DNA of 32,004 nt. Origin: Chloroflexi bacterium ADurb.Bin180 (GTDB lineage: Bacteria > Chloroflexota > Anaerolineae > UBA2200). The position numbers and the translations under genes were made by a program. Every line of letters begins with the position of its first letter. The stretch's first letter is position 1. Location of the stretch: positions 1 through 32,004 of the forward strand of contig MWCV01000029.1 in assembly GCA_002070215.1 (NCBI GenBank). The letters run 5' to 3'. This document shows, piece by piece, positions 199 through 21,152 of this stretch. The notes under the pieces were generated by a model that saw nothing but the letters and a program-made list of their open reading frames with translations, made no database searches and was not told the origin of the DNA.

Positions 199-377
199 GG
201 TGGCTGTAAGTATATACATTCGCCCCATGGATCGATCGGTCCGCTGCTTCGCTGGTTGTTGACATCGGGTGCGGGATTTGATACCGCCCGCGGTAGTTGA
301 CACGTAGCAACCTGGAGGCCTGTCCTCAGGCCTTGGTGTAGCATTTGACAACTCGCGCGCTGTGAAAGGACTTCACA

Positions 378-465
378 GCCTCCGATCTCTCTTGTCCCCC
401 AGGGATTTGGGAGACGATAGGGTGTGGGGAGCAATCCCTGCGCCTGCCGCGCTTGCAAAGGAGGC
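378..465 (+). promoter_or_regulatory. Riboswitch-like aptamer A, Moco/Tuco motif candidate
   Basis: An 88-nt element is closed by GCCTCC (378-383) and GGAGGC (460-465). Inside is a stem UCUCUUG/UGGGAGA extended by UCCC/GGGA, then a long stem capped by a GCAA (GNRA) tetraloop, then a conserved 3' segment ending GCAAAGGAG. The leader at 6842-6929 and the minus-strand leader at 21013-21124 share this architecture with compensatory changes. The GNRA-capped stem, and its position before a pterin-cofactor enzyme, fit the molybdenum/tungsten cofactor riboswitch class. That class name comes from memory and context and was not computed. Confidence 0.6.
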
Positions 466-510
466 ATCGCCGGTGGTCTGAGGACCGCCAGTCGGTGGCT
501 CCTCTTTTTT
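459..510 (+). terminator. Intrinsic terminator overlapping aptamer A
   Basis: The 5' arm begins with the aptamer's own 3' P1 strand. AGGAG (459-463) pairs with CTCCT (499-503), 465-469 pairs with 493-497, and a 7-bp hairpin (472-478/483-489, loop TGAG) sits on top. Six T follow (505-510). P1 and the terminator cannot form together, so ligand-stabilised P1 should permit readthrough into the ferredoxin-AOR genes (predicted ON switch). Between 511 and 657 I see only an untranslated leader. Confidence 0.65.
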
Positions 511-657
511 CCCCTCCGACGACCGCGATGCGCACTAGTAATGTACCGAAAGGGGGTGGTTTACCAGCAAGCGAGGCTCAGGTAACACCGGTTCGTCTCA
601 CTTTTCTGCTTTCGAGCTGGCTCGAGACAGGGAAGGATCTCAAGAGGAGAAGAGAGG

Positions 658-1518
658 ATGTCTGATCGAATAACCGAGAAGCTACAGCGGTTGCAGGAGC
701 AGATGCTCGCGGGCACAGTCTCGCGGCGCGATTTCCTGCGCTACGCCACGATGATGGGCGTGACCGTGGGAGCCGCAGAGGCTCTGGCTTCCTGCGCCCC
801 CAAGCCTGCGCCTACGGCAGTGCCTCCAACCAAAGTTCCGCCCACCGCAGCTCCGCCAACAGCCGTTGCACCGACTGCTGTGGCGCCGACTGCCCCGCCC
901 CCGGCTGCGGAGAAAAAGCCGCTGGCCGGCCACATGATTCGTTACAATCCCCAGTTGTGCACTGGCTGCTCGGTCTGTGCGTTTGCCTGTGCCGACAAGT
1001 GGATGACCAAGTACTTCCCCGAAGAGGCCAAGGATACCATCAATCTCGAGTTCTCCCGCATCCGCCCTATGCGCTTTCAGTGGGTGGATATCCTCCAGAA
1101 TTGCCAGTACTGCACATTGATGGAGTGGGCCGAGGGCTCGAACAAGGCGCCGTGCCAGCAGGTTTGCCCTCAGGAAGCCATCCAGGTCGTTCCCGAGGGT
1201 CAGGGTGAACCGACCTTTACCGGCTATGGCTACATGACGGTGGACCGCGATCTGTGCACCGGTCTTGACCTGTGCGGGCGCTGCCTCGAGATCTGCGAGG
1301 ACCAGTTCGGCAGTGGTATCTCGTTTGACCCGATTGAGAAAAAGGCCCAGATCTGCTCGCGTTGCGGCGGTCTGCCGGCCTGTGTGGATGCCTGCCCCGA
1401 GCCAGGTGCCCTCATGTTTGCCCCGCTGCAGACCAATGGTCGCTACTGGGCGAATACCCCCTCGGCGATGGCAGAGATGCTGTTCATGAAGATCTACCAG
1501 AAGAGGAGGACGGTGTGA
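658..1518 (+). CDS. Tat-exported lipoprotein ferredoxin with four [4Fe-4S] clusters (AOR partner 1)
   Basis: This 286-aa iron-sulfur protein is of the DmsB/NrfC/YdhY type and probably carries electrons to or from the AOR encoded next. Seen: a twin-arginine motif S22-R23-R24-D25-F26-L27, a hydrophobic stretch, a lipobox L-A-S-C46, and a Pro/Thr/Ala spacer at about 51-82. Sixteen cluster cysteines follow in four sets: 101/104/107/111, 149/152/166/170, 200/206/209/213 and 233/236/242/246. The start is ATG after a GAGGAGAAGAGAGG purine-rich ribosome site. Its TGA overlaps the next ATG by one base, implying translational coupling. Inferred location is the outer face of the cytoplasmic membrane, lipid anchored. 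Its paralogue is at 7122-7979, where even the ribosome-site region is nearly the same. Confidence 0.85.
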   Translation: MSDRITEKLQRLQEQMLAGTVSRRDFLRYATMMGVTVGAAEALASCAPKPAPTAVPPTKVPPTAAPPTAVAPTAVAPTAPPPAAEKKPLAGHMIRYNPQLCTGCSVCAFACADKWMTKYFPEEAKDTINLEFSRIRPMRFQWVDILQNCQYCTLMEWAEGSNKAPCQQVCPQEAIQVVPEGQGEPTFTGYGYMTVDRDLCTGLDLCGRCLEICEDQFGSGISFDPIEKKAQICSRCGGLPACVDACPEPGALMFAPLQTNGRYWANTPSAMAEMLFMKIYQKRRTV

Positions 1519-3548
1519 TGGCGGAGTTGAAGGGTTACTGGCACAAGATCCTGCGGATCGACCTGTCAAAAGGTACGATCGATACGGTTGTTCCGCCAGA
1601 GGACGTCCTGCGCAAGTACATCGGCGGCTTGACCCTGGGCACGTACTATCTGCTCAAGGAAGGGATCATCGACCCCAAGATCAAACCGTTCGATCCTGAG
1701 AACCTGTGGCAGTTGCTGCTGGGCCCGATGAATGGCTACGGCCCGAACGCGCGGTCCTGCATCGTCACCAAGAGCCCCTACAACTTTTTCGGTTCGGCAA
1801 CTTCAGGCGGCCAGGCTGCGGCCAATCTCAAGTTCGCCGGCTGGGATGGCATCCAGATTGTTGGCAAGGCCAGCAAGCCGGTGTACATCGAGATCATCGA
1901 TGACAATGTCGCGATCAAGGACGCCTCACACGTGTGGGGCAAGGACGCTGAAGAGTCGGAGATGGAGCTGGTGCGCGGCGTGCTCGCGCCCATCGAAAAG
2001 CGCGGCCCGCTGGTGAGCGAAGCGGACATGACGCCTGAATGGGCCGCCATGCGACCGCCCAAGGGCAAGGGCATCGGCCAAAAGCGGCTGGCTTCGGCAT
2101 GGGTAATCGGCACTGGTGGCGAGAATCGCGTCTGGTATTCTAACGTGATTACCGAAGGCGCGCGGGCTCACGGCCGACATGGCACAGGAGCCATTCTCGG
2201 CTCCAAGAACTGCAAAGGCATCGTGGTCCGCGGCACCAAAGGGCAGAAGCTCGCCGATAAGGCTACCTTCCAGAAGCTGCTCAAAGAAATCCAAGATGGC
2301 ATGATGACCAACTATGGCAACCGCTCCTTCGGCACTGCCCGTATCGGCAACCGCACGGCCAACATCGAAGACGCGTTTCCGATTCGGAACTGGCAGTGGG
2401 GCTGCTGGTCAGACCCGACCAACGTCAAAGCGCTGGATGGTCCGTTCATGGATTCCGTGTCGTTCGTCAAGCAGATTGCTTGCCCCGGCTGCGTGATGCA
2501 CTGCATGTACCTGTCGGAAGTGACGAGCAAGGACCCGCTGATGAACGGCACCATCACGGACATGCCGGACTGGGAAGCCATGGGCCAGGTTGGCGGTATG
2601 CTCGGCTACCTGGAACTCGAAGGCAGGACCCCGGAGGATCCTCATGGCGGCGATCACTGGGACATGGCCGAGGCGCTGGCCAAGACGCAGTTTAGCACCT
2701 TCCTGCACGACAACTATGGCCTCGACTATATCGAAGGTGGCTGCAACCTGGCCCTCGTGGCCGAGTTGTACCAGCGCGGTTACATCACCGCGGCCGACCT
2801 GGATGGCATTGCACCCAAGTGGGGCGATGTGCATGCTTTTGATGCCCTGCTGAAAAAGATCGTGCGCCGCGAAGGCATCGGCGACATAATGGCCAACGGC
2901 ACCTGGGAAACGGCCCGGTATTTTGCCGAAAAGACCGGCAAGCCGGAGATCATGAGGTACTCGCAGACCACGCACCGCTACGGCCAACCGGCTCACGGCG
3001 TTCGCGGCATCGACAAAGATGCACTGGAGTACGTGTCGGTAGAGCGCCCGAACGTGCACACGGACGGCGGCGGCGCTGGCTTCCTCAAGGGCGACTATGC
3101 GGCGGCAGCGGCCGACCAGAACGCCAAGTCGGTCGTGGACTCGCTGGTGTACTGCTCCTTTGCCCGCGGTCACTGGACTGGCAAGACGGCGGCGATCCTC
3201 AACGCGGCTACCGGCTGGGACATGAAGGAAGAGGAGCTGGGCCCCGTTGGCGCGCGGTTCTATGCCATGGCCCGCACGTTCAACCTCTACACTCAGGGCA
3301 TCAAGGATCCCAGGAAGGAATGGGACAATCTGATGACCGACCGCTGGTTCGAGGATCCTCTGCCGAACGGCCCCGCCAAGGGCGGTATTGCCTACGGTGG
3401 AGACAAGAACAAGCTCTTGAACCAGGCCCTGCCTGCGTACTGGAAGGCCCGCGGCTGGACCGAGGACAAGGGCGTGCCTACCGCCGATACGCTCAAGGCG
3501 CTGGGCATCGATGACTTCTGCGAACAGTACTCTGGAGCGTTGCGCTAG
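1518..3548 (+). CDS. Aldehyde:ferredoxin oxidoreductase family enzyme 1 (tungstopterin)
   Basis: This 676-aa enzyme has an AOR N-terminal domain (about 5-210) followed by the AOR C-terminal domains. Family members bind a bis-pterin tungsten (or molybdenum) cofactor and one [4Fe-4S] cluster, and oxidise or reduce aldehydes or related acyl groups. Cluster ligands visible are C322-x2-C325-x3-C329 and C546 in DSLVYC. The cofactor-binding stretch GARAHGRHGTGAILGSKN (214-231) is typical. I chose ATG 1518, which overlaps the ferredoxin stop; an upstream in-frame extension to 1362 would run through the ferredoxin gene. There is no signal peptide, so export would require riding with the Tat ferredoxin. 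The substrate cannot be told from sequence. BamB- and YdhV-like roles are alternatives within the family. Confidence 0.85.
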   Translation: MAELKGYWHKILRIDLSKGTIDTVVPPEDVLRKYIGGLTLGTYYLLKEGIIDPKIKPFDPENLWQLLLGPMNGYGPNARSCIVTKSPYNFFGSATSGGQAAANLKFAGWDGIQIVGKASKPVYIEIIDDNVAIKDASHVWGKDAEESEMELVRGVLAPIEKRGPLVSEADMTPEWAAMRPPKGKGIGQKRLASAWVIGTGGENRVWYSNVITEGARAHGRHGTGAILGSKNCKGIVVRGTKGQKLADKATFQKLLKEIQDGMMTNYGNRSFGTARIGNRTANIEDAFPIRNWQWGCWSDPTNVKALDGPFMDSVSFVKQIACPGCVMHCMYLSEVTSKDPLMNGTITDMPDWEAMGQVGGMLGYLELEGRTPEDPHGGDHWDMAEALAKTQFSTFLHDNYGLDYIEGGCNLALVAELYQRGYITAADLDGIAPKWGDVHAFDALLKKIVRREGIGDIMANGTWETARYFAEKTGKPEIMRYSQTTHRYGQPAHGVRGIDKDALEYVSVERPNVHTDGGGAGFLKGDYAAAAADQNAKSVVDSLVYCSFARGHWTGKTAAILNAATGWDMKEEELGPVGARFYAMARTFNLYTQGIKDPRKEWDNLMTDRWFEDPLPNGPAKGGIAYGGDKNKLLNQALPAYWKARGWTEDKGVPTADTLKALGIDDFCEQYSGALR

Positions 3549-3622
3549 CCGGTTCGCTATGGGCGGGGAGGCGCGAGCTCTCCCCGCAGCTACGGCAGAG
3601 CGCTGAGGCCCGAAGCAGCATC

Positions 3623-3668
3623 AAGGCCCCAACCTGATGTTCCTGATCGGGTTGGGGCCTTTGGTTTG
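3623..3668 (+). terminator. Intrinsic terminator after AOR 1
   Basis: AAGGCCCCAACC (3623-3634) pairs with GGTTGGGGCCTT (3650-3661), followed by TTGGTTTGG. It separates the ferredoxin-AOR unit from the ThiF-membrane protein-Rdh unit. The rest of 3549-3777 contains only a possible -10 (TAGAAT, 3705-3710) with a weak -35. Confidence 0.75.
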
Positions 3669-3704
3669 GCGTTGATGTCAGTTTGCAGGATGGTTAAGGT
3701 ACGG

Positions 3705-3710
3705 TAGAAT
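3705..3710 (+). promoter_or_regulatory. Possible -10 element for the ThiF operon
   Basis: TAGAAT lies about 68 bp before the preferred ThiF start, downstream of a terminator, where a promoter is needed. No good -35 is seen at the right distance (TTGCAG at 3683-3688 is poor), so this is tentative. Confidence 0.3.
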
Positions 3711-3777
3711 CGAAAGGAATGGCCTGGGCCTCGACGGCACGTCGTCGGCAAAGGATGTGAAGGGAGGACTGGCGCCG

Positions 3778-4680
3778 GTGAGCTACGAAGACCTCTTTGG
3801 ACGGAACCTTGGCATCTACAGTGTCGAGGAGCAGGAACGCATCAGGAACTCAAAGATGGCGATCATCGGCTGTGGCGGCATCGGGGGCGTGATTGCTCTG
3901 GTCCTGGCGCGGAGTGGGGTGGAGCATTTTGCTCTGGTGGAGAAGGACTGCTACGAGAGGTCCAATATGAACCGGCAGATAGTGTGCTTCTACGACACTA
4001 TCGGGCGCAACAAGGCCGAGTGCGTACGGGATGAGATCCTGCGCATCAACCCACAGGCTGACGTCAAGGTGGATTGCCGGGCCCTCACGGAACACGATAT
4101 CCCGCACCTGGCGGAGATGGGCGACGTGATTCTTCCAGTGATGGATGAGTGGCCGCTCAGCCTGACCTGCCTGGAACAAGTGCGCCAGGTCAAGCCGACG
4201 GTGATGGCTTACCCTGTGGGCGCCTTGGGCCGCGTGTCAGTCTTTACGGCCCAGAGCCCGACAGTGGCCGATTGTCTGGTGATGCCGGCTGGGTTTGGCT
4301 ATCAGCAGCTGGAGGACTATACACATCGTCCCGAGGCTCGCCGGCTGCTGATGTACTATCAGACCGAAGGCGGATGGCGCGAGGATTGGTTTAATGAATG
4401 GACCGAAGGCAGAAAGCCCCACGCTCAAATCGCGCCTATTGTGTGGATTACCTCTTGTCTTGCGGCAATGGAGGCGCTCAAGTTGGTGTCCGGCCGCTGG
4501 AAACCGGTTATCGCGCCCTACTACTGGCACATAACGCCAGAGAGCGCCAGCGTGCGCCGGTTCGGGCTGAGACGGAAGCTTGCCTCGCGGCTGTCGCGTC
4601 ACGAGTGGATGCTGAAGAGACTGTCAACATTGTCGCGCAACAAGACCCTGGTGCGCTGGTTCACCCGACTGATTGACTGA
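3778..4680 (+). CDS. ThiF/MoeB/HesA-family adenylyltransferase (E1-like)
   Basis: About 300 aa. Family members adenylate the C-terminal glycine of a small ubiquitin-like sulfur carrier (ThiS, MoaD) as a first step of thiazole or molybdopterin synthesis, or of related chemistry. Seen: the nucleotide-binding glycine motif GCGGIGG and the acidic/arginine ATP site VEKDCYERSNMNRQ. A C-terminal basic tail ends in WFTRLID. GTG 3778 is preferred because GGGAGG at 3762-3767 is 10 nt before it; GTG 3757 would put the ribosome site inside the gene. It is followed after 15 bp by the membrane protein, so they are co-transcribed. In this setting it may help make the pterin dithiolene for AOR, but no MoaD-like carrier is in the window. 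Cassette 2 lacks a copy. Confidence 0.75.
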   Translation: MSYEDLFGRNLGIYSVEEQERIRNSKMAIIGCGGIGGVIALVLARSGVEHFALVEKDCYERSNMNRQIVCFYDTIGRNKAECVRDEILRINPQADVKVDCRALTEHDIPHLAEMGDVILPVMDEWPLSLTCLEQVRQVKPTVMAYPVGALGRVSVFTAQSPTVADCLVMPAGFGYQQLEDYTHRPEARRLLMYYQTEGGWREDWFNEWTEGRKPHAQIAPIVWITSCLAAMEALKLVSGRWKPVIAPYYWHITPESASVRRFGLRRKLASRLSRHEWMLKRLSTLSRNKTLVRWFTRLID

Positions 4681-4695
4681 GCGGAGGAAAGCGGA

Positions 4696-5202
4696 GTGAA
4701 AGGCAAGCTGGTCTTACCCAACATTCTGGGGCTGGCCGCCGCGGGGATGATGGTTCTTGGCTATCGAGCACCATGGTGGATACTCCGCATGGAAGGATTG
4801 AAGGATGAGAGCTATGTCTTTCCCAACATCATTCGCGGGCCGGTGACAGAGGCGATTGGCTACAGACGCACGCCCCAGATGCAGTACATGGTGGCGGCGC
4901 TGTTCATCTGCATGGGGCTGTGTGTGCTGGGGAGCTTTCTTCCTCGGCGGAAAGCCCGTGTGGCCCTGGTCCTGTCGAGTATCCTCGGATCGCTGGTGCT
5001 GTGGCGTTTCTGGGTGAGGATCGCTGATCTGGCCTCGCGCTTTGAGATGCCGGTTGAGGGCCAGGGTGTGCTGCGCTATTCTGGGTTTGACGTGATGCGT
5101 GTCTGGTCGCGGGTGGGTGACGGGTTGTATCTCATGCTGGGGGGTTGCGGCCTGGCCCTCTTCGCGGCCCTCTTCCATCGCTGGCTGAGGCGGCCGGCCT
5201 GA
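4696..5202 (+). CDS. Small polytopic membrane protein paired with Rdh 1
   Basis: 168 aa with about four hydrophobic segments (roughly 7-24, 66-84, 88-106, 144-162). No known domain is recognised. It is a clear paralogue of the protein at 10162-10701: both carry PW(W)-x-L, FP-x-IIRGP-x-T, a G-Y-(R/K)-(R/K)-T-x-QM motif, and matching hydrophobic patterns. Each copy lies immediately 5' of an Rdh-like gene, the position and presumed job of a membrane anchor such as RdhB. However, it is larger and not recognisably RdhB. GTG start with GGAGG 8 nt upstream. Function as an anchor or quinone-side partner is inference from position only. Confidence 0.7.
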   Translation: MKGKLVLPNILGLAAAGMMVLGYRAPWWILRMEGLKDESYVFPNIIRGPVTEAIGYRRTPQMQYMVAALFICMGLCVLGSFLPRRKARVALVLSSILGSLVLWRFWVRIADLASRFEMPVEGQGVLRYSGFDVMRVWSRVGDGLYLMLGGCGLALFAALFHRWLRRPA

Positions 5203-5253
5203 TCTCTCTCTGGTGCTTGAACCCAATCTCTTTCCAGGAGTTATACCCACATT

Positions 5254-6723
5254 TTGCCCAAGCTGACCAATGAGCTCACCTCCCTCCAGCGCCTGCTGCG
5301 CGAGGGCACACTATCGCGGCGCGACTTTGTGCGTCGGCTGCTCATTCTTGGCGTTTCCGCCGGATCAGCGGAGCTGCTGGCGTCCTGTGCGCCCGCGCAG
5401 CAAGCGCCCGTTTCTCCTGCGACGCCAACGCACCCGCCGCTGCATTCGTCTTACGGTCCCACGCCGACTGACACGCCGTTGTCGGCGGGAGGCAATCTGG
5501 CGCTGGGCGCCACCCCTCCGGCGTACCCAACCTATACACCGGCACCGGAGAGCGCCTACCCTTCTCCCACCGCGACGCCGGTGATGTGGGAAGCGGGCCT
5601 GTGGATGTGTCCGCTGTGCAAGGGGAGGTTTGGGGCCGAGGGTGAGCTGGTCGAGCACCTGCTGAGTGCTCATGTGAGCAAGGTGCCCGGGGTGCGGGTG
5701 GTCGAAGAGCCGACATACCGGCGCTATCTGAATGAAGAGATAGCGCGGTTTGACCAGAGGAACATCATTTTTGCGCGGATGATGTGGGACCGGGAGTACA
5801 TTGCCAGGGCAGGGAGCCAGGCGCAGCGGCAGTGGCGTGAGAGTGGAGAGGAGCTGGCGCAAGGGCGGGCGGTGCGGACAGGTGCGATTTGGGTAGATGA
5901 CAGTGTGGGGAGTCTGGCGCCACAGTACGGCGGGTTTTCTGGCCATGTGCGAGGGTTTGGGGGATTGTACGATTGGGATGATGCGGTAGCGCCTCAGAAG
6001 TCACCCATAGGGACGCCAGAGGAGATGACGGTACGGGTGAAGGAAGCGGCGCGGTATTACGGGGCGGATCTGGTGGGGGTGACGGAGATCAACCCGTTGT
6101 GGGTGTACTCGCACTATTATGATCGGGAGACGGGGGCGTACGGGGAGAACGAGACAGGGTACAAGTACGCGATCATGATTGGGATTGAGATGGACTTTGG
6201 CGGGATCAGGCAGTCACCGGGATGGGGGGCGAGTGCGGCGACGGCGCTGGCGTACTCGGAGATGGGCGAGGTAGTGGCGAAGCTGGCCAAGTACATCAGG
6301 ACGCTGGGGTACGAGGCAGTGCCATCGGGGAACGACACGACGCAGAACATACCGTTGGCGATAGATGCTGGGTTGGGGGAGCTGGGGCGGCTGGGGCTAT
6401 TGCTGACTCCGGAGTACGGGGCGCGGCAGAGGTTATGCAAGGTACTGACGAATCTGCCACTGGTGGCAGACAAGCCGATAGAGTTTGGGATGCAGCGGTT
6501 CTGCGAGACGTGTATGGCGTGTGCGCATGCGTGTCCGGCGAAGGCGATACCGAAGGGGGAGCGGAGTCTGGAGCGGACGTCGATATCGAACCGACCGGGG
6601 ATCAAGCGGTGGCACGTGAATGTAGAGAACTGTTATCTATTCTGGAGGCAGAACGGCGGGGTGGACTGCTCGAACTGTGTAGCGGCGTGTCCGTGGAGCC
6701 AGCAGAACCGTCCCTGGCTGTGA
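5254..6723 (+). CDS. Reductive-dehalogenase-like Tat lipoprotein 1 with C2H2 zinc-finger motif
   Basis: 489 aa. Order: coiled n-region, Tat motif S21-R22-R23-D24-F25, lipobox L-A-S-C45, Pro/Thr/Ala linker (46-110), then C119-x2-C122-x12-H135-x4-H140, a classical C2H2 spacing with F and L at the usual core positions. Next comes an RdhA-type catalytic domain with IEMDFGGIRQSPG (311-323) and DAGLGELGRLGLLLTPEYGA (371-390). Two [4Fe-4S] sites close the protein: C417/C420/C423/C427 and C460/C472/C475/C479. RdhA enzymes use a corrinoid to remove halogens; whether this one does is unproven. The start appears to be TTG 5254 (AGGAG 13 nt upstream, rather far). Bases 5563-6721 are nearly identical to 11036-12194, and codon use changes abruptly there (GGG, AGG, ATA, GTA frequent). 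Confidence 0.8.
   Translation: MPKLTNELTSLQRLLREGTLSRRDFVRRLLILGVSAGSAELLASCAPAQQAPVSPATPTHPPLHSSYGPTPTDTPLSAGGNLALGATPPAYPTYTPAPESAYPSPTATPVMWEAGLWMCPLCKGRFGAEGELVEHLLSAHVSKVPGVRVVEEPTYRRYLNEEIARFDQRNIIFARMMWDREYIARAGSQAQRQWRESGEELAQGRAVRTGAIWVDDSVGSLAPQYGGFSGHVRGFGGLYDWDDAVAPQKSPIGTPEEMTVRVKEAARYYGADLVGVTEINPLWVYSHYYDRETGAYGENETGYKYAIMIGIEMDFGGIRQSPGWGASAATALAYSEMGEVVAKLAKYIRTLGYEAVPSGNDTTQNIPLAIDAGLGELGRLGLLLTPEYGARQRLCKVLTNLPLVADKPIEFGMQRFCETCMACAHACPAKAIPKGERSLERTSISNRPGIKRWHVNVENCYLFWRQNGGVDCSNCVAACPWSQQNRPWL
5563..6721 (+). repeat. Long direct repeat, copy 1 (catalytic part of Rdh 1)
   Basis: 1,159 bp matching 11036-12194 at constant offset 5,473. I found three differences: 5601 G/A (silent), 6628 A/G (Asn to Asp) and 6648 G/A (silent). 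All are near the ends, leaving 1,026 bp with no difference seen. Sequence diverges at once on both flanks. Confidence 0.9.
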
Positions 6724-6758
6724 TGCCCCAGGCCGTCTGGCAAGCGCGACAGCGGCAC

Positions 6759-6787
6759 TTGACAAGTGCCGCGCAAGTTCCTATACT
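6759..6787 (+). promoter_or_regulatory. Sigma70-type promoter of cassette 2
   Basis: TTGACA (6759-6764) and TATACT (6782-6787) are spaced 17 bp apart, giving a start near 6794, about 48 nt before the second riboswitch-like aptamer. Confidence 0.75.
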
Positions 6788-6841
6788 CTGGATAGCGATA
6801 CGATAGAGCGTCTCTAAGAGAGACGAGTCGTGGCGGTAGCG

Positions 6842-6929
6842 GCCTCCGATCCCTTGATTCCCCCGGGGAACCAAGGGACGATAAGGTGCGGAGAGCAATC
6901 TCTACGCCCGCCGTGTTTGCAAAGGAGGC
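6842..6929 (+). promoter_or_regulatory. Riboswitch-like aptamer B, Moco/Tuco motif candidate
   Basis: Also 88 nt, closed by GCCTCC (6842-6847) and GGAGGC (6924-6929). The second stem is CCCUUG/CAAGGG plus UUCCC/GGGAA, different bases from leader A but the same pairing. The third stem is again capped by GCAA (6894-6897). The sequences GACGATA and TTTGCAAAGGAG are conserved. Covariation between the leaders is the main support for a structured RNA. Confidence 0.6.
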
Positions 6930-6972
6930 AGTTCTCCCTCGTGCCAATATGAGGGGAGCTGTTCTCCTTTTT
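6922..6972 (+). terminator. Intrinsic terminator overlapping aptamer B
   Basis: The P1 3' strand AAGGAG (6922-6927) pairs with CTCCTT (6964-6969). An inner stem CTCCCTC (6934-6940) pairs with GAGGGGAG (6951-6958), and T runs follow. As in leader A, closing P1 would block the terminator (predicted ON switch). Bases 6973-7121 are untranslated leader ending in GAGGAGAAGAGAGG. Confidence 0.6.
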
Positions 6973-7121
6973 GTTTTCTGGCACTTTGGCCGAGGGCCTT
7001 GATCCTGACTGAAGGGAGGTGGGAAACAGAAACTGTCGGCGGAGTCCCATTCTCGGTAACCCGAGAGTCCACTCGTTTTGATAGCTCGAGACCGGAGAGG
7101 AATTCGAGAGGAGAAGAGAGG

Positions 7122-7979
7122 ATGTCACAACTTCACGAAAGGCTGTCCGAACTGCAGGAAAAGCTTCGCCTGGGGCAGATCACCAGACGCGATTTCCTGC
7201 GCTATGCGACCTTGCTTGGCGTTTCGGTTGGTGCGGCAGAGGCTCTGGCGGCTTGCGCCCCCAAGCCCGGGCCCACGGCCGTTCCGCCGACGAAGGTTCC
7301 CCCGACCAAGGTGCCGCCAACAGCAGTAGCTCCTAGCGAGCCGGCACCGACTGCCCCGCCGCCAGTGGCGGAGAAGCAGGCACTGCCGGGCCATACCCTG
7401 CTGGTCGACCCGACCAAGTGCACCGGCTGCTTGAACTGCGCCGTTGCCTGCTCTGAAAAGTGGCTGGCGGAGTATTTCCCCAACGAGGCCAAGCACCTGA
7501 TGAGCCTGGAGTTCTCCCGCATTCGTCCGATGCGGTTCCAGCTGGTGGATGTGGTCAACGTATGCTACGACTGCCGTCTCTACCAGTGGGCGGAGGGCAG
7601 CTCAAAGGCGCCGTGCGAGCAGGTCTGTCCGCAGGCCGCTCTGACGGTGGTGCCGGTTGGCGAGGGCAAGCCCGGATTCACAGGCAACGGCTACCTGAAT
7701 GTGGACCGCGACCTGTGCACGGGCCTCGACCTGTGCGGACGCTGCCTCGAGATCTGCGAGGATCAGTTTGGCAGCGGCATTTCCTTTGACCCGATTGAGA
7801 AGAAGGCGCAGATCTGCTCTCGCTGCGGCGGTCTGCCTGCCTGTGTGGAGGCCTGCCCCGAGCCGCTCGCCCTGCAGTTCTATCCGTTGATGACGAACGG
7901 CCGCATGTTTGCGCAGACCCCCGCTGACCTGGCCGAAAGCCTGTATAACAAGATCTACGACAAGTTTGGGAGGGTATAA
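7122..7979 (+). CDS. Tat-exported lipoprotein ferredoxin with four [4Fe-4S] clusters (AOR partner 2)
   Basis: 285 aa, paralogue of the protein at 658-1518. It has a Tat motif T21-R22-R23-D24-F25-L26, lipobox L-A-A-C45 and a Pro/Thr spacer with repeated VPPTK units (46-82). Cluster cysteines are at 100/103/106/110, 148/151/165/169, 199/205/208/212 and 232/235/241/245. The stretch around the third and fourth clusters (about 194-247) is almost residue-for-residue the same in both paralogues, whereas the first half has diverged. This suggests a conserved docking surface. ATG 7122 has the same purine-rich ribosome site as paralogue 1; upstream in-frame sequence back to 6999 is leader. The TAA is directly followed by the AOR ATG (TAAATG). 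Inferred to be membrane-anchored on the outside. Confidence 0.85.
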   Translation: MSQLHERLSELQEKLRLGQITRRDFLRYATLLGVSVGAAEALAACAPKPGPTAVPPTKVPPTKVPPTAVAPSEPAPTAPPPVAEKQALPGHTLLVDPTKCTGCLNCAVACSEKWLAEYFPNEAKHLMSLEFSRIRPMRFQLVDVVNVCYDCRLYQWAEGSSKAPCEQVCPQAALTVVPVGEGKPGFTGNGYLNVDRDLCTGLDLCGRCLEICEDQFGSGISFDPIEKKAQICSRCGGLPACVEACPEPLALQFYPLMTNGRMFAQTPADLAESLYNKIYDKFGRV

Positions 7980-10016
7980 ATGGCCGAGATGTTTGGATAC
8001 GCTGGCAAGATTGCCCGGGTGGACCTCACCGCTGGCACCGTCACGGTCATTGAGCCCCCGGTCGACGTTCTGAAGAAATTCCTGGGCGGAGCAGCGCTCG
8101 GAATGTACTACATGGTCAAGGAAGGGCTGTCGGACCCCGCCATCGGCGCTTTCCACGAGAAGAACATGATCCAGTTCTTGCTGGGACCCACCAATGGCTT
8201 TGGCCCCAACGCCCGGTCGACGATTGTTACCAAGTCGGCCTACAATTTTAACTGCATCACCACCTCCGGCGGTCGCGCGGCGGCGGAGCTCAGATTTGCT
8301 GGCTGGGACGGCATCCAGGTTGTTGGCAAGGCCAAGACCCCGGTCTACCTCGAGGTCATCGACGACAAGATTACCATCAAGGACGCGACTCACCTGTGGG
8401 GCAAGGACAGCGAAGAGACCGAGAAGGAACTGCTAGCCTCGATTCAGGCCCCGCTGGAAAAGCGCGAGACGATCGTGACTGCTGGCGACATGACCCCGGA
8501 ATGGGCAGCAGTGCGCCCGCCGGGAGGAAAAGGCATCGGCGCCAAGAGGCTCGGCGCGGCCTGGGTTATCGGCCGAGGCGGCGAGAACCGCGTCTGGTAT
8601 GCCTGCGTTACCACAGAAGCCGCTCGAGCCCACGGACGTTACGGTGCGGGTGCCATCATGGGTGACAAAAAGCTGAAGGGCATTGTCATTCGCGGCACCA
8701 AGGGCCAGAAGATCTATGACAAGGCCAAGTTCCTGAAGATCCTCTACGACATCCAGGCTTCGGAGGCCAAGGACGCGTTCTGGAGACTGTATGGCACCGC
8801 TGGCATCGGCCAGTCCGAGTCCAACGTCCAGAGCGGCTATCCGATCCGTAACTGGCAGTGGTGCTCCTGGAACGATCCGGATGTGGTCAAGTCGCAGGAT
8901 GGCCCGTTTATGGACAACACCAGCTTCAAGAAGCCGCTGTCGTGCCCAAACTGCAACTTGCACTGCATGTTCAGCAGCGAAATCACGAGCAGCGACCCAA
9001 TGATGAACGGTGTCTTGTCCGACATGCCTGACTGGGAAGCCATGGGCATGGTCGGCGGCAACCTGGGCTACATGGAGAAGGCGGGCAAGACGCCTGAGGA
9101 TCCACAGCAGCTTACCCAGGCTGAGCGGCGTGAAGTGCTGGCCAAGATTCAGTACACCACCTTCCTCCACGACAACTACAGTCTGGACTATATCGAGGGC
9201 GGCAACAACCTCGCCCTGGTCCAGGAGCTGTACCAGCGCAAGCTGATCACCGAAGCGGACCTGGATGGCATCAAGCCCGTGTGGGGCGATGTACACGCCA
9301 TCGACGCCCTGGTGAAAAAGATCATCCTGCGTGAGGGAGTTGGCGACCATCTGGCCAACGGCACCCTGGAGACGGCCAAGTACTTTGCTCAGAAGAAGAA
9401 CAACCCCGAGATACTCAAGTACGCCTGCACTACCCACGGTTACGGGCAGCCGGCGCACGGCGTACGCAGCCATGCCGACCAGAACGACCTCGAGTACGTC
9501 ACCGTCAACCGCGCTACGGAGCATACCAGCAACGGAGCCGCAGGGTTCTCCAAGCTGGACTATGCTGCCGGTGTCGCCGGGCAGGACGTCAAGTGCTCTC
9601 AGGACTCGCTGGTGCACTGCATCTTTGCCGCCGGTCACTGGGCTGGCAAGACTGCGGACATGATCCAAGCTCTCACGGGCTGGACTGACTACACTGAGGA
9701 AGACCTGTTCACGCTCGGTGCCCGCGAATACGCCCTGTGCCGCATCTTTGACCTCACCACCCGCGGCGTGAAGGATCCCAAGAAGGAATGGGATATGATG
9801 AACTACCAGCACCGCTGGTACGAGCCGCTGCCGAACGGGCCGTTCAAGGGCTCCGTCGCGGCGTCCGGGACTCCGGAGAAGCTCTTTAATGAGCAGCTCC
9901 CGGCTTACTGGAAGGCCAGAGGCTGGACCGATGATAAGGGTGTTCCCACGGCTGCCAAGCTGAAGGAACTCGGCATCGATGATATTGCCGAGGCCCTTGC
10001 GGCAAAGCTGCGCTAG
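7980..10016 (+). CDS. Aldehyde:ferredoxin oxidoreductase family enzyme 2 (tungstopterin)
   Basis: 678 aa, same length and domain order as the first AOR and clearly paralogous throughout (shared GWDGIQ-VGKA, MTPEWAA-RPP, WVIG-GGENRVWY). Cluster ligands C322/C325/C329 (SCPNCNLHC) and C548 (DSLVHC) are present, as is the pterin-contact stretch AARAHGRYGAGAIMGDKK. There is no signal peptide; Tat export with the coupled ferredoxin is inference. Divergence between the two enzymes spread over the whole length suggests an old duplication with different substrates, in contrast with the very recent identity of the Rdh genes. A terminator follows. Confidence 0.85.
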   Translation: MAEMFGYAGKIARVDLTAGTVTVIEPPVDVLKKFLGGAALGMYYMVKEGLSDPAIGAFHEKNMIQFLLGPTNGFGPNARSTIVTKSAYNFNCITTSGGRAAAELRFAGWDGIQVVGKAKTPVYLEVIDDKITIKDATHLWGKDSEETEKELLASIQAPLEKRETIVTAGDMTPEWAAVRPPGGKGIGAKRLGAAWVIGRGGENRVWYACVTTEAARAHGRYGAGAIMGDKKLKGIVIRGTKGQKIYDKAKFLKILYDIQASEAKDAFWRLYGTAGIGQSESNVQSGYPIRNWQWCSWNDPDVVKSQDGPFMDNTSFKKPLSCPNCNLHCMFSSEITSSDPMMNGVLSDMPDWEAMGMVGGNLGYMEKAGKTPEDPQQLTQAERREVLAKIQYTTFLHDNYSLDYIEGGNNLALVQELYQRKLITEADLDGIKPVWGDVHAIDALVKKIILREGVGDHLANGTLETAKYFAQKKNNPEILKYACTTHGYGQPAHGVRSHADQNDLEYVTVNRATEHTSNGAAGFSKLDYAAGVAGQDVKCSQDSLVHCIFAAGHWAGKTADMIQALTGWTDYTEEDLFTLGAREYALCRIFDLTTRGVKDPKKEWDMMNYQHRWYEPLPNGPFKGSVAASGTPEKLFNEQLPAYWKARGWTDDKGVPTAAKLKELGIDDIAEALAAKLR

Positions 10017-10050
10017 CAGCGGCTAGAGCCGCGGTTCGAGTTGTACTTGG

Positions 10051-10093
10051 AAGGCCCCGGCCCTGGGATACTTGACCAGGCCGGGGCCTTTCG
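10051..10093 (+). terminator. Intrinsic terminator after AOR 2
   Basis: AAGGCCCCGGCC with CTGG (10051-10066) pairs with CCAGGCCGGGGCCTT (10077-10091), followed by TTCG. It is placed as in cassette 1, ending the ferredoxin-AOR unit. Confidence 0.7.
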
Positions 10094-10113
10094 TCTACGC
10101 CATGACGAGGCTG

Positions 10114-10122
10114 TGCTATAAT
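10114..10122 (+). promoter_or_regulatory. Extended -10 promoter for membrane protein-Rdh 2
   Basis: TGCTATAAT gives a consensus -10 (10117-10122) with the extended TGn element. No clear -35 is seen, which extended -10 promoters can tolerate. It lies just after the terminator and 40 bp before the membrane-protein start. Confidence 0.5.
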
Positions 10123-10161
10123 GCGAGCAAATCCAATCCTGATTTCGGCAGAGGAGGGAGC

Positions 10162-10701
10162 GTGAAATCCAAGACACTCCCCAATTTCGTCGCCATTCTG
10201 GGCGCCATTCTGATTGCGGTCTCACTGGCCTACCCCTGGTGGAGCCTCGAGATCGAGATCATTGGCAAGACCAACATCTTTCCCTACATCATTCGCGGCC
10301 CTGCCACGCAGCTCCTGGGCTACAAGAAGACGGCGCAGATGCCGCTACTGACCGGCATTATCATCGCCTGCGTCGTGCTGGCGCTGCTGGGCAGCTTACT
10401 CGGAAAACGCCTGGGGCGGGTGGTGCTGCTGGTGGCTGGTGCCCTGTCCGGGCTGGCGGCGTGGCGCTTTTATGCTCGAGCACTGGACATCGCTGGCCGC
10501 TATCAAATGAAGTCAGTGAACGGCCACACCATCGCCAAAGTGGGGGCCTTTTCGCCACTGCACGTGGCCGCGCGGCTGGAGAGAGGCTACTACCTGAATA
10601 TTGCTGGCGGTGTGGTCTGCCTGGTGGCGTTCCTGCTGCACGGGTTCTTCCGTCGATCCAAGCCCAAGCCGGCGCCAGAAGGACCAGTTGCACCCGAATG
10701 A
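10162..10701 (+). CDS. Small polytopic membrane protein paired with Rdh 2
   Basis: About 179 aa from GTG 10162 (GTG AAA TCC), which has GAGGAGGGAG a few bases upstream; a longer in-frame form from 10072 would overlap the terminator and promoter. Around four membrane segments are expected, with a Lys/Pro-rich tail. It shares with the 4696-5202 protein the sequence LPN near the start, YPWW/APWW, FP-x-IIRGP, GY-x-x-TAQMP or TPQMQ, and the closing hydrophobic segment. The Rdh 2 gene starts about 31 bp after its stop. Conserved pairing of this family with Rdh-like genes suggests it holds the lipoprotein or passes electrons to it. No domain is recognised. Confidence 0.7.
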   Translation: MKSKTLPNFVAILGAILIAVSLAYPWWSLEIEIIGKTNIFPYIIRGPATQLLGYKKTAQMPLLTGIIIACVVLALLGSLLGKRLGRVVLLVAGALSGLAAWRFYARALDIAGRYQMKSVNGHTIAKVGAFSPLHVAARLERGYYLNIAGGVVCLVAFLLHGFFRRSKPKPAPEGPVAPE

Positions 10702-10732
10702 CGACCAGGACCCGGCAAACCCGAGGCCAGAC

Positions 10733-12196
10733 GTGGCGCGGCTAGACGGAGCGTCTGGTGAACTCGTGCTGTCGCGCCGCGGTTTTGTGCGCCTGGCGGC
10801 CCGTCTTGGGTTGCTGGCCGGCGCGGGCCTGGGCCTGTCGTCGTGCGTGCCGCCTGGACTCCAACCCCTGGATTCGAGCGCCTCTGGCCTGGGGCCAGAA
10901 TCGACCCCCACGCAGCATCATCACGGATACCCGGCCTTTGTTGGCAACGAGAGCCGCGAGGTAATTCGCCACGGCGGAGCACCGCAGGTCAAGACGCTGC
11001 CAACCTATGCGCCACCCCCGGGGAAAACCTCTGCCTCTCCCACCGCGACGCCGGTGATGTGGGAAGCGGGCCTATGGATGTGTCCGCTGTGCAAGGGGAG
11101 GTTTGGGGCCGAGGGTGAGCTGGTCGAGCACCTGCTGAGTGCTCATGTGAGCAAGGTGCCCGGGGTGCGGGTGGTCGAAGAGCCGACATACCGGCGCTAT
11201 CTGAATGAAGAGATAGCGCGGTTTGACCAGAGGAACATCATTTTTGCGCGGATGATGTGGGACCGGGAGTACATTGCCAGGGCAGGGAGCCAGGCGCAGC
11301 GGCAGTGGCGTGAGAGTGGAGAGGAGCTGGCGCAAGGGCGGGCGGTGCGGACAGGTGCGATTTGGGTAGATGACAGTGTGGGGAGTCTGGCGCCACAGTA
11401 CGGCGGGTTTTCTGGCCATGTGCGAGGGTTTGGGGGATTGTACGATTGGGATGATGCGGTAGCGCCTCAGAAGTCACCCATAGGGACGCCAGAGGAGATG
11501 ACGGTACGGGTGAAGGAAGCGGCGCGGTATTACGGGGCGGATCTGGTGGGGGTGACGGAGATCAACCCGTTGTGGGTGTACTCGCACTATTATGATCGGG
11601 AGACGGGGGCGTACGGGGAGAACGAGACAGGGTACAAGTACGCGATCATGATTGGGATTGAGATGGACTTTGGCGGGATCAGGCAGTCACCGGGATGGGG
11701 GGCGAGTGCGGCGACGGCGCTGGCGTACTCGGAGATGGGCGAGGTAGTGGCGAAGCTGGCCAAGTACATCAGGACGCTGGGGTACGAGGCAGTGCCATCG
11801 GGGAACGACACGACGCAGAACATACCGTTGGCGATAGATGCTGGGTTGGGGGAGCTGGGGCGGCTGGGGCTATTGCTGACTCCGGAGTACGGGGCGCGGC
11901 AGAGGTTATGCAAGGTACTGACGAATCTGCCACTGGTGGCAGACAAGCCGATAGAGTTTGGGATGCAGCGGTTCTGCGAGACGTGTATGGCGTGTGCGCA
12001 TGCGTGTCCGGCGAAGGCGATACCGAAGGGGGAGCGGAGTCTGGAGCGGACGTCGATATCGAACCGACCGGGGATCAAGCGGTGGCACGTGAATGTAGAG
12101 GACTGTTATCTATTCTGGAGACAGAACGGCGGGGTGGACTGCTCGAACTGTGTAGCGGCGTGTCCGTGGAGCCAGCAGAACCGTCCCTGGCTGTAA
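10733..12196 (+). CDS. Reductive-dehalogenase-like Tat lipoprotein 2 with C2H2 zinc-finger motif
   Basis: 487 aa from GTG 10733 (GAGG six bases upstream); a longer reading to 10601 would run through the membrane-protein gene. The N-terminus is unrelated in detail to Rdh 1 but has the same design: SRRGFV Tat motif, hydrophobic stretch, lipobox L-S-S-C, then a Ser/Pro/His linker. From SPTATPVMWEAG to the end it differs from Rdh 1 by one residue (Asp for Asn in the second cluster loop). It therefore carries the same C2H2 pattern, RdhA-type core and two [4Fe-4S] sites. Codon use switches from host-like (CGC, GGC) to GGG/AGG/ATA-rich at the same point. It ends in TAA where copy 1 has TGA, and identity stops there. 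Confidence 0.8.
   Translation: MARLDGASGELVLSRRGFVRLAARLGLLAGAGLGLSSCVPPGLQPLDSSASGLGPESTPTQHHHGYPAFVGNESREVIRHGGAPQVKTLPTYAPPPGKTSASPTATPVMWEAGLWMCPLCKGRFGAEGELVEHLLSAHVSKVPGVRVVEEPTYRRYLNEEIARFDQRNIIFARMMWDREYIARAGSQAQRQWRESGEELAQGRAVRTGAIWVDDSVGSLAPQYGGFSGHVRGFGGLYDWDDAVAPQKSPIGTPEEMTVRVKEAARYYGADLVGVTEINPLWVYSHYYDRETGAYGENETGYKYAIMIGIEMDFGGIRQSPGWGASAATALAYSEMGEVVAKLAKYIRTLGYEAVPSGNDTTQNIPLAIDAGLGELGRLGLLLTPEYGARQRLCKVLTNLPLVADKPIEFGMQRFCETCMACAHACPAKAIPKGERSLERTSISNRPGIKRWHVNVEDCYLFWRQNGGVDCSNCVAACPWSQQNRPWL
11036..12194 (+). repeat. Long direct repeat, copy 2 (catalytic part of Rdh 2)
   Basis: Partner of 5563-6721. Differences lie at 11074, 12101 and 12121. Such repeats also make this locus prone to deletion of the 5.5 kb between them, or to assembly error. 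Confidence 0.9.
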
Positions 12197-13848: not shown

Positions 13849-14034
13849 ATGCCTCGTCTGGGTGTGCCGGAGCTGTTGATCATTCTGGTGATCGTGATTC
13901 TGGTTTTTGGTGTGGGCAAGCTGCCCGAAGTTGGTTCCTCTCTCGGGAAGGCGATCCGTGGTTTCCGCGAAGAGACCGAGGTCAAGCCGGCTGAGAAGAA
14001 GACGGAAGACAACAAAGAAGTCAAGAAAGACTAG
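13849..14034 (+). CDS. tatA: TatA-type twin-arginine translocase subunit
   Basis: 61 aa. TatA forms the pore part of the Tat system, which exports folded proteins. Seen: N-terminal membrane helix (about 6-22), FG-x-x-KLPE hinge (FGVGKLPE), amphipathic helix with G-x-x-L-GKAIRGFREE, and a short charged tail (PAEKKTEDNKEVKKD). Start ATG with AAGGA eight bases upstream. Five proteins encoded just before it carry Tat motifs, so its placement fits dedicated export of this locus. No tatC is in the window. Confidence 0.9.
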   Translation: MPRLGVPELLIILVIVILVFGVGKLPEVGSSLGKAIRGFREETEVKPAEKKTEDNKEVKKD

Positions 14035-14152
14035 GCTTGTTGCGCGCCGCCGGCTGCCCCCTGGGAGCAATGCTTACAGGGAGGAAGACGCCCAGTCTGC
14101 CCCGCCATTCTACGAGCTGCCCTGCGGGGTCCGCCGGCGTGGAGGATGTAGG

Positions 14153-14692
14153 ATGAACTTTCTGAACATCGGCCCGGGGGAGATGATCTTTATCCTGGCC
14201 CTGGCGCTGCTGATCTTCGGTCCCAAGCGCCTGCCCGAGTTGGCGCGAGACCTGGGCAAGGCCGTGCGCAGTTTTCAGCAGGCCTCTCAGCAGATCACGA
14301 GTGAGTTAACCAAAGAAATGAGCGAAGCGTCCAAGACACTCGACCAGGCTTCAGACTCTGTGTCGGGCGCCCTGAGCGAGGTGGCCAATACCACCGCTGC
14401 CGAATTGTCGCAGGCCGCTGCCGCCGCGAGTGGCGAGCTGCACAAAGCCACCGGCGCCATCAATACCGAGCTGCAGCAAGCGGCGGCGGCTGCCTCGGCC
14501 CCACAATCTCTCACCCAGGCCGCCGTTGAGCCGGCGGTTGCGGGGATTGCTGACCTGCCTCCTAACGATGCGGTTCAGCCACAACGGCCGCCTTCTGACG
14601 CGGCCCCTGCCGAGCCAGAGCCGCTGACTCATCAGACCGAGGACGGCACCGCTGCCTCTGAACCCGTCGAAGGATCTACGTACGTGATCTAG
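14153..14692 (+). CDS. tatB: TatB-like twin-arginine translocase subunit
   Basis: 179 aa from ATG 14153 (GGAGG upstream; the longer in-frame reading from 13907 crosses tatA). It opens with NFLNIGPGEMIFILALALLI, an N-terminal helix, then FGPKRLPELARDLGKAVRSF. A long Ala/Ser/Gln-rich, probably coiled amphipathic region (about 45-120) and a Pro-rich acidic tail follow. The acidic residue in the membrane-entry segment and the long cytoplasmic helix favour TatB over TatA, though Chloroflexota often have TatA-like proteins only. TatB would receive the precursor with TatC. Confidence 0.75.
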   Translation: MNFLNIGPGEMIFILALALLIFGPKRLPELARDLGKAVRSFQQASQQITSELTKEMSEASKTLDQASDSVSGALSEVANTTAAELSQAAAAASGELHKATGAINTELQQAAAAASAPQSLTQAAVEPAVAGIADLPPNDAVQPQRPPSDAAPAEPEPLTHQTEDGTAASEPVEGSTYVI

Positions 14693-17962: not shown

Positions 17963-18742
17963 CTAGTGGGTAACCACCAAGGGCCGGTTGTGAACGGTGA
18001 TTACTTCCACATCGACGCCGTAGGTAGCGCTCAGATGCTCAGCCGTGAGGGTGTCAGCGATAGGCCCGGCGGCAAGAATCCTGCCGCCGCGCATGAGAAT
18101 GACCTCGTCGCAGATGGCCGCGGCCGAGTTGGGGTCGTTGGTCGTGAAGACGACGGTATGGGCTCCGTCCGCCAGGCGGCGCATCAACTGCAGGACGCGC
18201 CGGCGGTTGCCTATGTCCAGATGAGACGTGGGCTCGTCGAGAAGGAACATCGCCGGGCGCTGCGCGAGGGCGCGTGCGATAGTGGCGAGCTGCTTTTCGC
18301 CCCCGCTCAGAGAGGGGACCGTACGGGCACGGAACCCCGCCATGCCGGCCTCGGCCATCGACTGCTCGACCACTGTCAGGTCCTCGTCCGAGGGAAGCTG
18401 CAGCAGGCCCAGGTGCGGAGCTCGCCCGAGCAACACATACTCGGCGACGGTAATGTCAAAGACGACCTGTTCCTGCTGTGGAACCAGCCCCAGCGTGTGG
18501 CTCAGCTCCTTGCGCGTATAGTCCCGAGCAGGGCGGCCTTCGAGAAGCACTTCGCCACTGGTGGGCTGCAGCAGGCCGAGGATGAGGTGCAGCAGGGTTG
18601 TCTTGCCAGACCCGTTCGGACCCAGGAGGGCCGTGACTTTGCCTGCCGGCACCTCCGCTTCAAGTCCGTTCAACACGTGAGCTCTCTCGGGCTCGTAGCC
18701 AAAGACCGCGTTCCGCAGCGATATAGCTGGCCGCGCGCTCAT
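17963..18742 (-). CDS. ABC importer ATPase (BtuD/FecE/MolC class), H-loop His replaced by Asn
   Basis: 259 aa cytoplasmic ATPase that powers uptake through the adjacent permease. Walker A GPNGSGKTT (41-49), Q-loop Q89-Q90, signature LSGGEKQ (145-151) and Walker B MFLLDEPTSHLD (165-176) are intact. Where family members have the switch histidine (TTHD), this protein reads T-T-N202-D-P. The start overlaps the permease stop by four bases. The class also includes iron-siderophore and B12 importers. The Moco-type leader of the operon favours molybdate or tungstate (MolC-like). Confidence 0.85.
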   Translation of the reverse strand: MSARPAISLRNAVFGYEPERAHVLNGLEAEVPAGKVTALLGPNGSGKTTLLHLILGLLQPTSGEVLLEGRPARDYTRKELSHTLGLVPQQEQVVFDITVAEYVLLGRAPHLGLLQLPSDEDLTVVEQSMAEAGMAGFRARTVPSLSGGEKQLATIARALAQRPAMFLLDEPTSHLDIGNRRRVLQLMRRLADGAHTVVFTTNDPNSAAAICDEVILMRGGRILAAGPIADTLTAEHLSATYGVDVEVITVHNRPLVVTH

Positions 18743-19761
18743 CGCTGTACTCCAACGCGTCGGTGCGTGAGCATCGTCAGGAAGAAAGCCGCGCCAACAA
18801 ACGAGGTGAGTATTCCCAGCGGGATCTCACCGGTGAGCACCGTGCGGGCGACGTCGTCACACCAGAGCACAAAGAGGCTGCCCAGAAGCATTGAACCGGG
18901 CACCACATGCCTGGCGTCGGAGCCGAGCAGCCGTCGGGCAATGTGCGGAATGATCAACCCCACCCAGCCTACCTGGCCGCACTTGGAGACAAGAGCCGCA
19001 GCGGAGGCTGTGGCAGCGAGGAGGAGGACGAATCGCTCTCTGCCGGGAGTGGCGCCGAGAGAAAAGGCCGTCTCGTCGCGCATCGAAAGCAGGTTGAGCC
19101 GCCAGCGCATCAGATAGATTACGGTGAGGCTGGGGATCACCACCGGCAGGATTTGCAGCAGGTCGCGCCAGGTGATTGCCCAGAGCCCGCCGAGCATCCA
19201 GAAGGTGATGTCCGGGAGCTGGCGGACCGGGTCGGCCATGTACTTGAGCACCCCGGTGGCCGAGGTGTAGAGCGCCGACACAGCGATGCCGGCCAGCACC
19301 AACCGCAGCGTCCAGTCTCCAAAGCGCACCTGTCGCGCGAGAAAGGCGCTGCCGAGCAAACCGAGCATGGCAAAGCCCGCAGCACACAGTTGAATGGTGG
19401 CAGAGCGGCCGCCAAGCAACACGATCGCGACCGATGCGCCAAACGCAGCGCCAGGAGAGACGCCAAGGAATCCCGAGTCGACCAGCGGGTTGCGGAACAC
19501 CAACTGAAACACCGTCCCTGAGGCCGATAGCACAATGCCGAGAAGAAAGGCGGTGAGAATCCTGGGCACACGGAGATTCAGCACCAGGCTGCGCGCCATG
19601 AGATCGTTGACCAGTGCCGCCGGCGAGGTGAAATACGGCGTCGGGTAGCGGCCCATGAAGAAGGAGATGGCAAGGGTCACCACGACCAGGGCCATCAACA
19701 GCCATGTGAGGCGGATGGAGGTCAAGCTGCTCCCGGGCACAGTGCCTTGTTTAGTGGACAT
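18739..19761 (-). CDS. ABC importer permease, FecCD/BtuC/MolB class
   Basis: 340 aa, about ten membrane helices as usual for the FecCD family. Recognisable stretches are LRVPRILTAFLLGIVLSASG, then NPLVDSGFLGVSPGAAFGAS, and GLIIPHIARRLLGSDARHV near the C-terminal coupling helix. Its ATG lies 11 bp inside the end of the binding-protein gene, so translation is coupled. As a type II importer it forms a homodimer in the membrane. Substrate is inferred from regulation only. Confidence 0.85.
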   Translation of the reverse strand: MSTKQGTVPGSSLTSIRLTWLLMALVVVTLAISFFMGRYPTPYFTSPAALVNDLMARSLVLNLRVPRILTAFLLGIVLSASGTVFQLVFRNPLVDSGFLGVSPGAAFGASVAIVLLGGRSATIQLCAAGFAMLGLLGSAFLARQVRFGDWTLRLVLAGIAVSALYTSATGVLKYMADPVRQLPDITFWMLGGLWAITWRDLLQILPVVIPSLTVIYLMRWRLNLLSMRDETAFSLGATPGRERFVLLLAATASAAALVSKCGQVGWVGLIIPHIARRLLGSDARHVVPGSMLLGSLFVLWCDDVARTVLTGEIPLGILTSFVGAAFFLTMLTHRRVGVQR

Positions 19762-20896: not shown

Positions 20897-20922
20897 TGAG
20901 ACCTCCTGGAATCCGGATACAC

Positions 20923-20954
20923 AAAAAAGCAGCCTTCCGGTGAAGGAGGCTGCC
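20923..20954 (-). terminator. Intrinsic terminator of riboswitch C expression platform
   Basis: On the minus strand GCAGCC (20953-20948) pairs with GGCTGC (20934-20929), with inner TTC/GAA pairs and a six-T tract (20928-20923), 27 bp before the start codon. A copy of the 3' arm (GAAGGCT) occurs upstream at 21008-21002. The aptamer strand AAGGAG (21021-21016) can also pair with CTCCTT (20948-20943). Both are candidate antiterminators, so aptamer closure should favour termination (predicted OFF switch). Confidence 0.6.
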
Positions 20955-21012
20955 AGGCAACTAGCCCGCCGGCTCCCCGCCTGCACTATTGACGGTCGTG
21001 GAGCCTTCGGGT

Positions 21013-21124
21013 CATCTCCTTTCCGAATGCGGGAGGCAAGGCCGTTTCCAGCCATGCCCTACCGGCGCCCCGCCATCGGCGGACAAGGTTCGTCGCCGCC
21101 ATTAGGACGGGGCACTCGGAGATG
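21013..21124 (-). promoter_or_regulatory. Riboswitch-like aptamer C before the ABC importer, Moco/Tuco motif candidate
   Basis: On the minus strand P1 is CATCTCC (21124-21118) with GGAGATG (21019-21013). The second stem is longer (GCCCCG/CGGGGC, then GGCGG/CCGCC). The third is about 10 bp capped by GAAA, again a GNRA loop. The 3' segment CCCGCATTCGGAAAGGAG aligns with GCCGCGCTTGCAAAGGAG of leader A. CTCCGA after P1 is shared by all three. This is the element that links importer and enzymes to one ligand. Confidence 0.6.
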
Positions 21125-21152
21125 TTGATCAGGTTAGGAAAGAACCGGAGCT

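Follow-up and report, generated by a model that had tools for sequence, protein, structure and literature searches.

Two tandem units with reductive dehalogenase genes

The window analysed here is a stretch of 32,004 nucleotides that makes up the entire contig C29 of a 170-contig, 3.13 Mb draft genome of Chloroflexi bacterium ADurb.Bin180, and it contains no N. Two units follow one another on its forward strand. Each is organised in the order Mo/W-cofactor riboswitch, FeS protein with a Tat signal, aldehyde:ferredoxin oxidoreductase (AOR), membrane protein and rdh, with a gene for a ThiF-like protein lying after the AOR gene in unit A only. One such unit is found in the relatives G005, G002 and G034, whereas two in tandem are found in the genus of the window genome. 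This genus includes UBA2200 (G001; public records DCVA01...), to which several features listed below are related.

368-479, +: Mo/W-cofactor riboswitch (RF01055) before unit A; Rfam gathering-level match
658-1518, +: FeS protein A with Tat signal; Pfam Fer4_7, TIGR01409
1518-3548, +: AOR A; Pfam AFOR_N/AFOR_C; orthologous to the AOR of UBA2200 contig L007; open frame from 1362, start set by alignment with AOR B
3757-4680, +: ThiF/MoeB-like E1 protein, only in unit A; Pfam ThiF
4696-5202, +: membrane protein partner A; orthologous to a gene of UBA2200 L007; no family match
5254-5562, +: diverged N-terminus of rdh copy A; Tat/lipoprotein-type signal (RRDF, LLASC) and Pro/Thr linker
5563-6721, +: catalytic block, copy A; 99.7% identical to 11036-12194; TIGR02486 RDH above cutoff
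6832-6943, +: Mo/W-cofactor riboswitch (RF01055) before unit B; Rfam
7119-7979, +: FeS protein B with Tat signal; Pfam and TIGR matches; orthologous to a gene of UBA2200 contig C41; open frame from 6999
7980-10016, +: AOR B; Pfam match; 90% amino acid identity to the AOR of UBA2200 C41
10162-10701, +: membrane protein partner B; open frame from 10072; orthology tree with UBA2200
10733-11035, +: N-terminus of rdh copy B; Tat/lipoprotein-type signal (RRGF, LSSC), different linker, start codon uncertain
11036-12194, +: catalytic block, copy B; 99.7% identical to 5563-6721; TIGR02486
12301-13785, +: NapG/NapH-like membrane polyferredoxin, after unit B; profile matches; also downstream in single-copy relatives

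The products of the two rdh genes score 210.6 and 209.9 bits with TIGR02486 (RdhA), above the curated cutoff of 160.35. Both carry a twin-arginine motif near the N-terminus (SRRDF in copy A, SRRGF in copy B) and two FeS-cluster motifs, corresponding to the Fer4_16/Fer4_7 double cluster. Tyr, Asn and Arg residues aligning with Y246, N272 and R305 of PceA, which we take to be active-site residues of that enzyme, are all kept. Judged from their sequences, both copies are predicted reductive dehalogenase catalytic subunits. The match to PceA of Sulfurospirillum (4uqu) and to 8q4h extends over the core and the FeS-cluster region. The Rdh proteins of the window differ from these two in their N-terminus, which is of lipoprotein type, in a long Pro/Thr linker, and in a C2H2-like CxxC...H where the block begins. 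This motif, CPLC...HLLSAH (CxxC...H...H), opens the block at about 5596-5675 of an exported dehalogenase and is nearly invariant in relatives. Structure prediction on 12 sequences was tried for placing the domain boundary and was set aside, the mean pLDDT of 48 being too poor. The membrane protein encoded upstream of each rdh gene matches no RdhB model.

Other features of the window concern export and cofactor supply. The FeS and Rdh proteins begin with a similar Tat N-terminal segment (658-800, 7119-7260, 5254-5390 and 10733-10870), as if one export module were used, and a TatA-like protein (13907-14692) adjoins this cluster of Tat-exported redox proteins. A third Mo/W-cofactor riboswitch (21000-21133, minus strand) lies upstream of a periplasmic-binding-protein/FecCD/ABC transporter set (17963-21055, minus strand), which is perhaps a molybdate or tungstate importer.

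The repeated catalytic block and its edges

The segments 5563-6721 and 11036-12194 are direct copies of 1,159 bp, with a spacing of 5.5 kb. Their direct alignment shows three mismatches (99.7% identity). The first, G/A at 5601/11074 (offset 38), is silent in a Leu codon; the second, A/G at 6628/12101 (offset 1065), changes Asn to Asp; the third, G/A at 6648/12121 (offset 1085), is silent in an Arg codon. The 1,026 bp between the first two contain no difference, and all three sites are at most about 95 nt from a block edge. On the left, identity starts at 5563 and does not extend further leftward. On the right, it stops at the stop codon (TGA versus TAA). The flanks are unalignable between the copies, with the riboswitch downstream of copy A and the leader of the polyferredoxin downstream of copy B, and the linkers show 50% identity with gaps. 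Because the copies can be aligned no further than the hinge on one side and the stop codon on the other, tracts ending there call for no special element. The remainder of the units is far more diverged, with nucleotide identities of 66% (AOR), 70% (FeS protein) and 50% (membrane partner and rdh N-terminus). Thus, direct alignment reproduces what the initial annotation had described, namely near-identical blocks with three differing sites close to their edges and a clean interior, limited by the linker and the stop codon within otherwise diverged units. A scan of 1.58 Mb (half) of the source genome turned up no second repeat longer than 300 bp at an identity of 95% or more.

Since members of the family share a conserved enzyme core, it may be asked whether purifying selection alone could keep both catalytic domains identical. 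The two blocks differ at 2 of 291 synonymous sites, as compared with about 0.56 differences per site between the AOR and FeS paralogs next to them, so that chance and purifying selection are excluded as sources of the identity. Orthologous blocks of the window and UBA2200, two sister species, show about 0.41 differences per synonymous site, which refutes purifying selection alone and leaves it with practically no probability.

A second possibility concerns the assembly. Elsewhere in the source genome, contigs break off in repeats of about 200-240 nt, so that this draft looks short-read-built, as does that of UBA2200; the contig nevertheless crosses an exact repeat of 1,026 nt. A tandem repeat forms a simple graph loop, and an assembler may traverse it with a single consensus; differences would then survive only close to the unique flanks. 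The probability that all three mismatches would fall within 95 nt of an edge by chance is about 0.004, by simple arithmetic. Edge-only mismatches are therefore also what a collapsed repeat would show, and this weighs against an exchange between genes. In such a case, one consensus block would have been written twice, or one copy would not exist. This explanation is nonetheless very unlikely: each copy has its own variants near both edges, the order A then B is the same in UBA2200, and a remnant in that genome shows that an rdh gene belongs at position B. Moreover, graphs collapse only sequences that are already near-identical, so that concerted evolution would remain. The perfect identity of the interior may in part be an assembly consensus, but the near-identity of the two blocks is secure, and concerted evolution is independent of the perfect interior identity.

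Descent of the block and of its neighbours

UBA2200 contig L007 is collinear with positions 348-5623 of the window and ends just inside the block. Contig C41 of UBA2200, once reversed, starts 27 nt before the stop codon of rdh A and continues with the riboswitch, FeS protein B, AOR B, membrane partner B, an rdh B pseudogene and, later, the polyferredoxin. In the trees of the AOR, the FeS protein and the membrane partner, A genes group with A genes and B genes with B genes across species with high support, and grouping of the two window copies is rejected (p-AU of 3.6e-22, 5.9e-67 and 1.0e-38, respectively). In contrast, the block tree unites the two window copies (support 100/99) and rejects the pairing of window copy A with UBA2200 (p-AU 8.6e-4). 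Between window copies A and B, dS reaches about 1.0 in AOR and FeS but only 0.007 in the block; between the window and UBA2200, it is 0.59 in the block and 0.68-0.85 in AOR and FeS. The A-A and B-B pairing of the neighbour genes indicates that the tandem duplication is older than the split from UBA2200. As the block is younger than this split, gene conversion fits and a recent duplication of the whole unit is excluded. From the ratio of 0.007 to 0.59, the last exchange would have occurred at about 1% of the interspecies divergence, if the assembly is exact.

In UBA2200, rdh B is a pseudogene (L052 reverse complement, about 4025-4236): a deletion has joined its start and first codons to the last 51. 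This remnant sits at the syntenic B position; an rdh gene was therefore ancestrally present there and available for conversion. The initial annotation had considered either recent gene conversion or the insertion of one module twice. The first reading is sustained by neighbour genes that follow orthology and a block that follows paralogy, whereas the second is disfavoured by the remnant at locus B. The remnant clusters with the block of UBA2200 itself (91/99, 180 nt), and both have QN changed to KS near the C-terminus; it differs from this block at 14 of 36 synonymous sites, which implies that an exchange, if any, is old. Furthermore, UBA2200 contigs L007 and L008, whose rdh N-termini differ, both terminate in the same 25 nt of the block, immediately after the hinge; L006 starts inside the block, and C41 starts at the 3′ edge of the block. 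Such breaks at the two edges of a single block are typical of a repeat. Hence, UBA2200 appears to carry traces of the same process. Relatives with diverged genes and no conversion tract had been named as evidence against the reading. UBA2200, the one close relative, allows only a partial comparison, because its B copy is deleted; it shows, between its locus A and a third locus, a repeat signature resembling that of the window. As this is the one other species with the duplication, and its copies are incompletely assembled, recurrence through time would rest on 51 codons and on contig ends, which weighs against the conversion reading. Another tandem pair of related rdh genes, in G078 (L073 6015-14109), is independent, with a diverged AOR in one unit; the two genes are 73% identical and show no recent homogenisation.

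The third locus, C, links UBA2200 to another contig of the window genome. The N-terminus on L008 and the rdh of C83 are reciprocal best matches (score 276, next 193). In C83, the domain downstream of this N-terminus is only 58% identical to the block. In UBA2200, what follows the C-type N-terminus, with the hinge at the same place, is a block of A type, whose initial 57 nt can be read before the contig stops. L006 was dismissed as the certain 3′ half of this locus, its AOR being only 29% identical to that of C83 and the pairing resting on exclusion. A YfhO-like upstream gene was likewise discarded as a marker, as G000 C50 matches better; because this gene is not locus-specific, the orthology of locus C rests on the rdh N-terminus. 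A different possibility is that the catalytic domain serves as a ready-made cassette, copies of which are placed behind foreign N-termini, from A to B in the window and from A to C in UBA2200. The A-type block start behind a C-type N-terminus, where the C83 counterpart has a different domain, agrees with such a domain replacement, and so does the common position of the hinge at A/B here and at C in UBA2200. However, locus B had its own rdh and locus C shows just the first 57 nt of the block. In addition, a repeat scan at the block edges found no insertion element, terminal repeats or inverted ends, and no recombinase was found among the annotated neighbour genes. A cassette thus has little probability. 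Locus C also weighs against gene conversion, because domains of about 58% protein identity are rarely reached by its ordinary form, as an A to C transfer in UBA2200 would demand. Searches of a plasmid collection, of 396 genomes from the class and of 400 from the phylum found no foreign donor closer to the block than UBA2200; the best plasmid match was 39.8%.

Altogether, domain-limited concerted evolution by gene conversion between the two rdh catalytic blocks is the explanation that we regard as highly probable. The unit, with its riboswitch and its genes for FeS protein, AOR, membrane partner and rdh, was duplicated in tandem before the split from UBA2200. All of it except the rdh catalytic domain has since diverged along orthologous lines, whereas the two copies of that domain in the window are near-identical. 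The direct copies would recombine by the ordinary homologous (RecA-type) route, one catalytic domain being overwritten non-reciprocally by the other, and conversion tracts would stop where homology runs out, at the Pro/Thr hinge on one side and the stop codon on the other. The block evidence is compatible with either copy as donor. As a result, one dehalogenase core would stand behind two Tat/lipoprotein N-termini and would be fed by two FeS/AOR/membrane-partner sets under Mo/W-cofactor riboswitches.

The closest precedent is found in Methanococcales and Methanomicrobiales, where mtrA-1 and mtrA-2 are ancient paralogs with different membrane-anchor parts and a shared catalytic domain that is homogenised within species (92-99.7%), while orthologs differ (PMC4632066). 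There too, gene conversion is limited to a domain, the duplication is older, and the protein is a corrinoid protein. However, the mtrA case spans many genomes and a very long time, whereas the present one involves two draft genomes and a dehalogenase, with duplicated partner gene sets and an unusual codon usage seen in the block alone. Long-lasting concerted evolution has been described for 26 prokaryotic genes over long time spans; there, within-species paralogs are closer than orthologs, as in the window, and the process is recurrent (PMC6053082). In Dehalococcoides, close rdh paralogs occur in recombining regions, and whole genes move on islands at tRNA/tmRNA sites (PMC2764846); in the window, sharing is confined to the catalytic domain, and its surroundings showed no signs of an island. 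A search of literature available without subscription returned no paper combining "reductive dehalogenase" and "gene conversion". The locus would thus represent a known kind of process, as in mtrA-1/mtrA-2, in a new enzyme family. It offers a natural case in which the dehalogenase core is constant while the export/anchor part and the redox partners vary, so that the role of these parts becomes testable. It also calls for caution, as whole operons can end up misplaced in rdhA trees that rely on the catalytic domain.

Codon usage of the block

At the 197 fourfold sites of the block, the frequency of G is 0.73 and that of C is 0.09. Over 1,136 ORFs of the genome, G minus C at such sites has a mean of -0.02 (sd 0.12), corresponding to a z of 5.4 for the block, and the two rdh genes rank first and second. 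Runs of at least three G amount to 38 per kb in the block, whereas the 1,136 ORFs average 15.9 and reach at most 34.4. Unlike those of the neighbours, the codons of the block strongly favour a final G (GGG for 29 of 40 Gly, GCG for 31 of 39 Ala); ATA is also used for 7 of 18 Ile. The support interval of the best composition change point is 5572-6010 in copy A and 11045-11327 in copy B, which places the start of the bias at or soon after the hinge. An overlapping gene was rejected as an explanation for the unusual third positions, since all other frames of the block contain stops in both the window and UBA2200.

The bias is common to the UBA2200 block (L006 2-862) and the B remnant, and it is absent from single-unit relatives and from other paralogs. 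It could stem from selection, from a strand-biased process tied to conversion or from an old acquisition. Linking it to recombination is speculation. In one such scheme, the block would be a recombination-prone module copied repeatedly behind different N-termini at one hinge, whose G-rich coding strand, kept in both species, would promote exchange through R-loops or G-quadruplexes, like the G4 near Neisseria pilE, or would be the footprint of strand-biased conversion; this is unlikely. Whatever its source, interspecies fourfold differences in the block are mostly A/G with few C/G, unlike those in neighbour genes, so that the bias is being kept.
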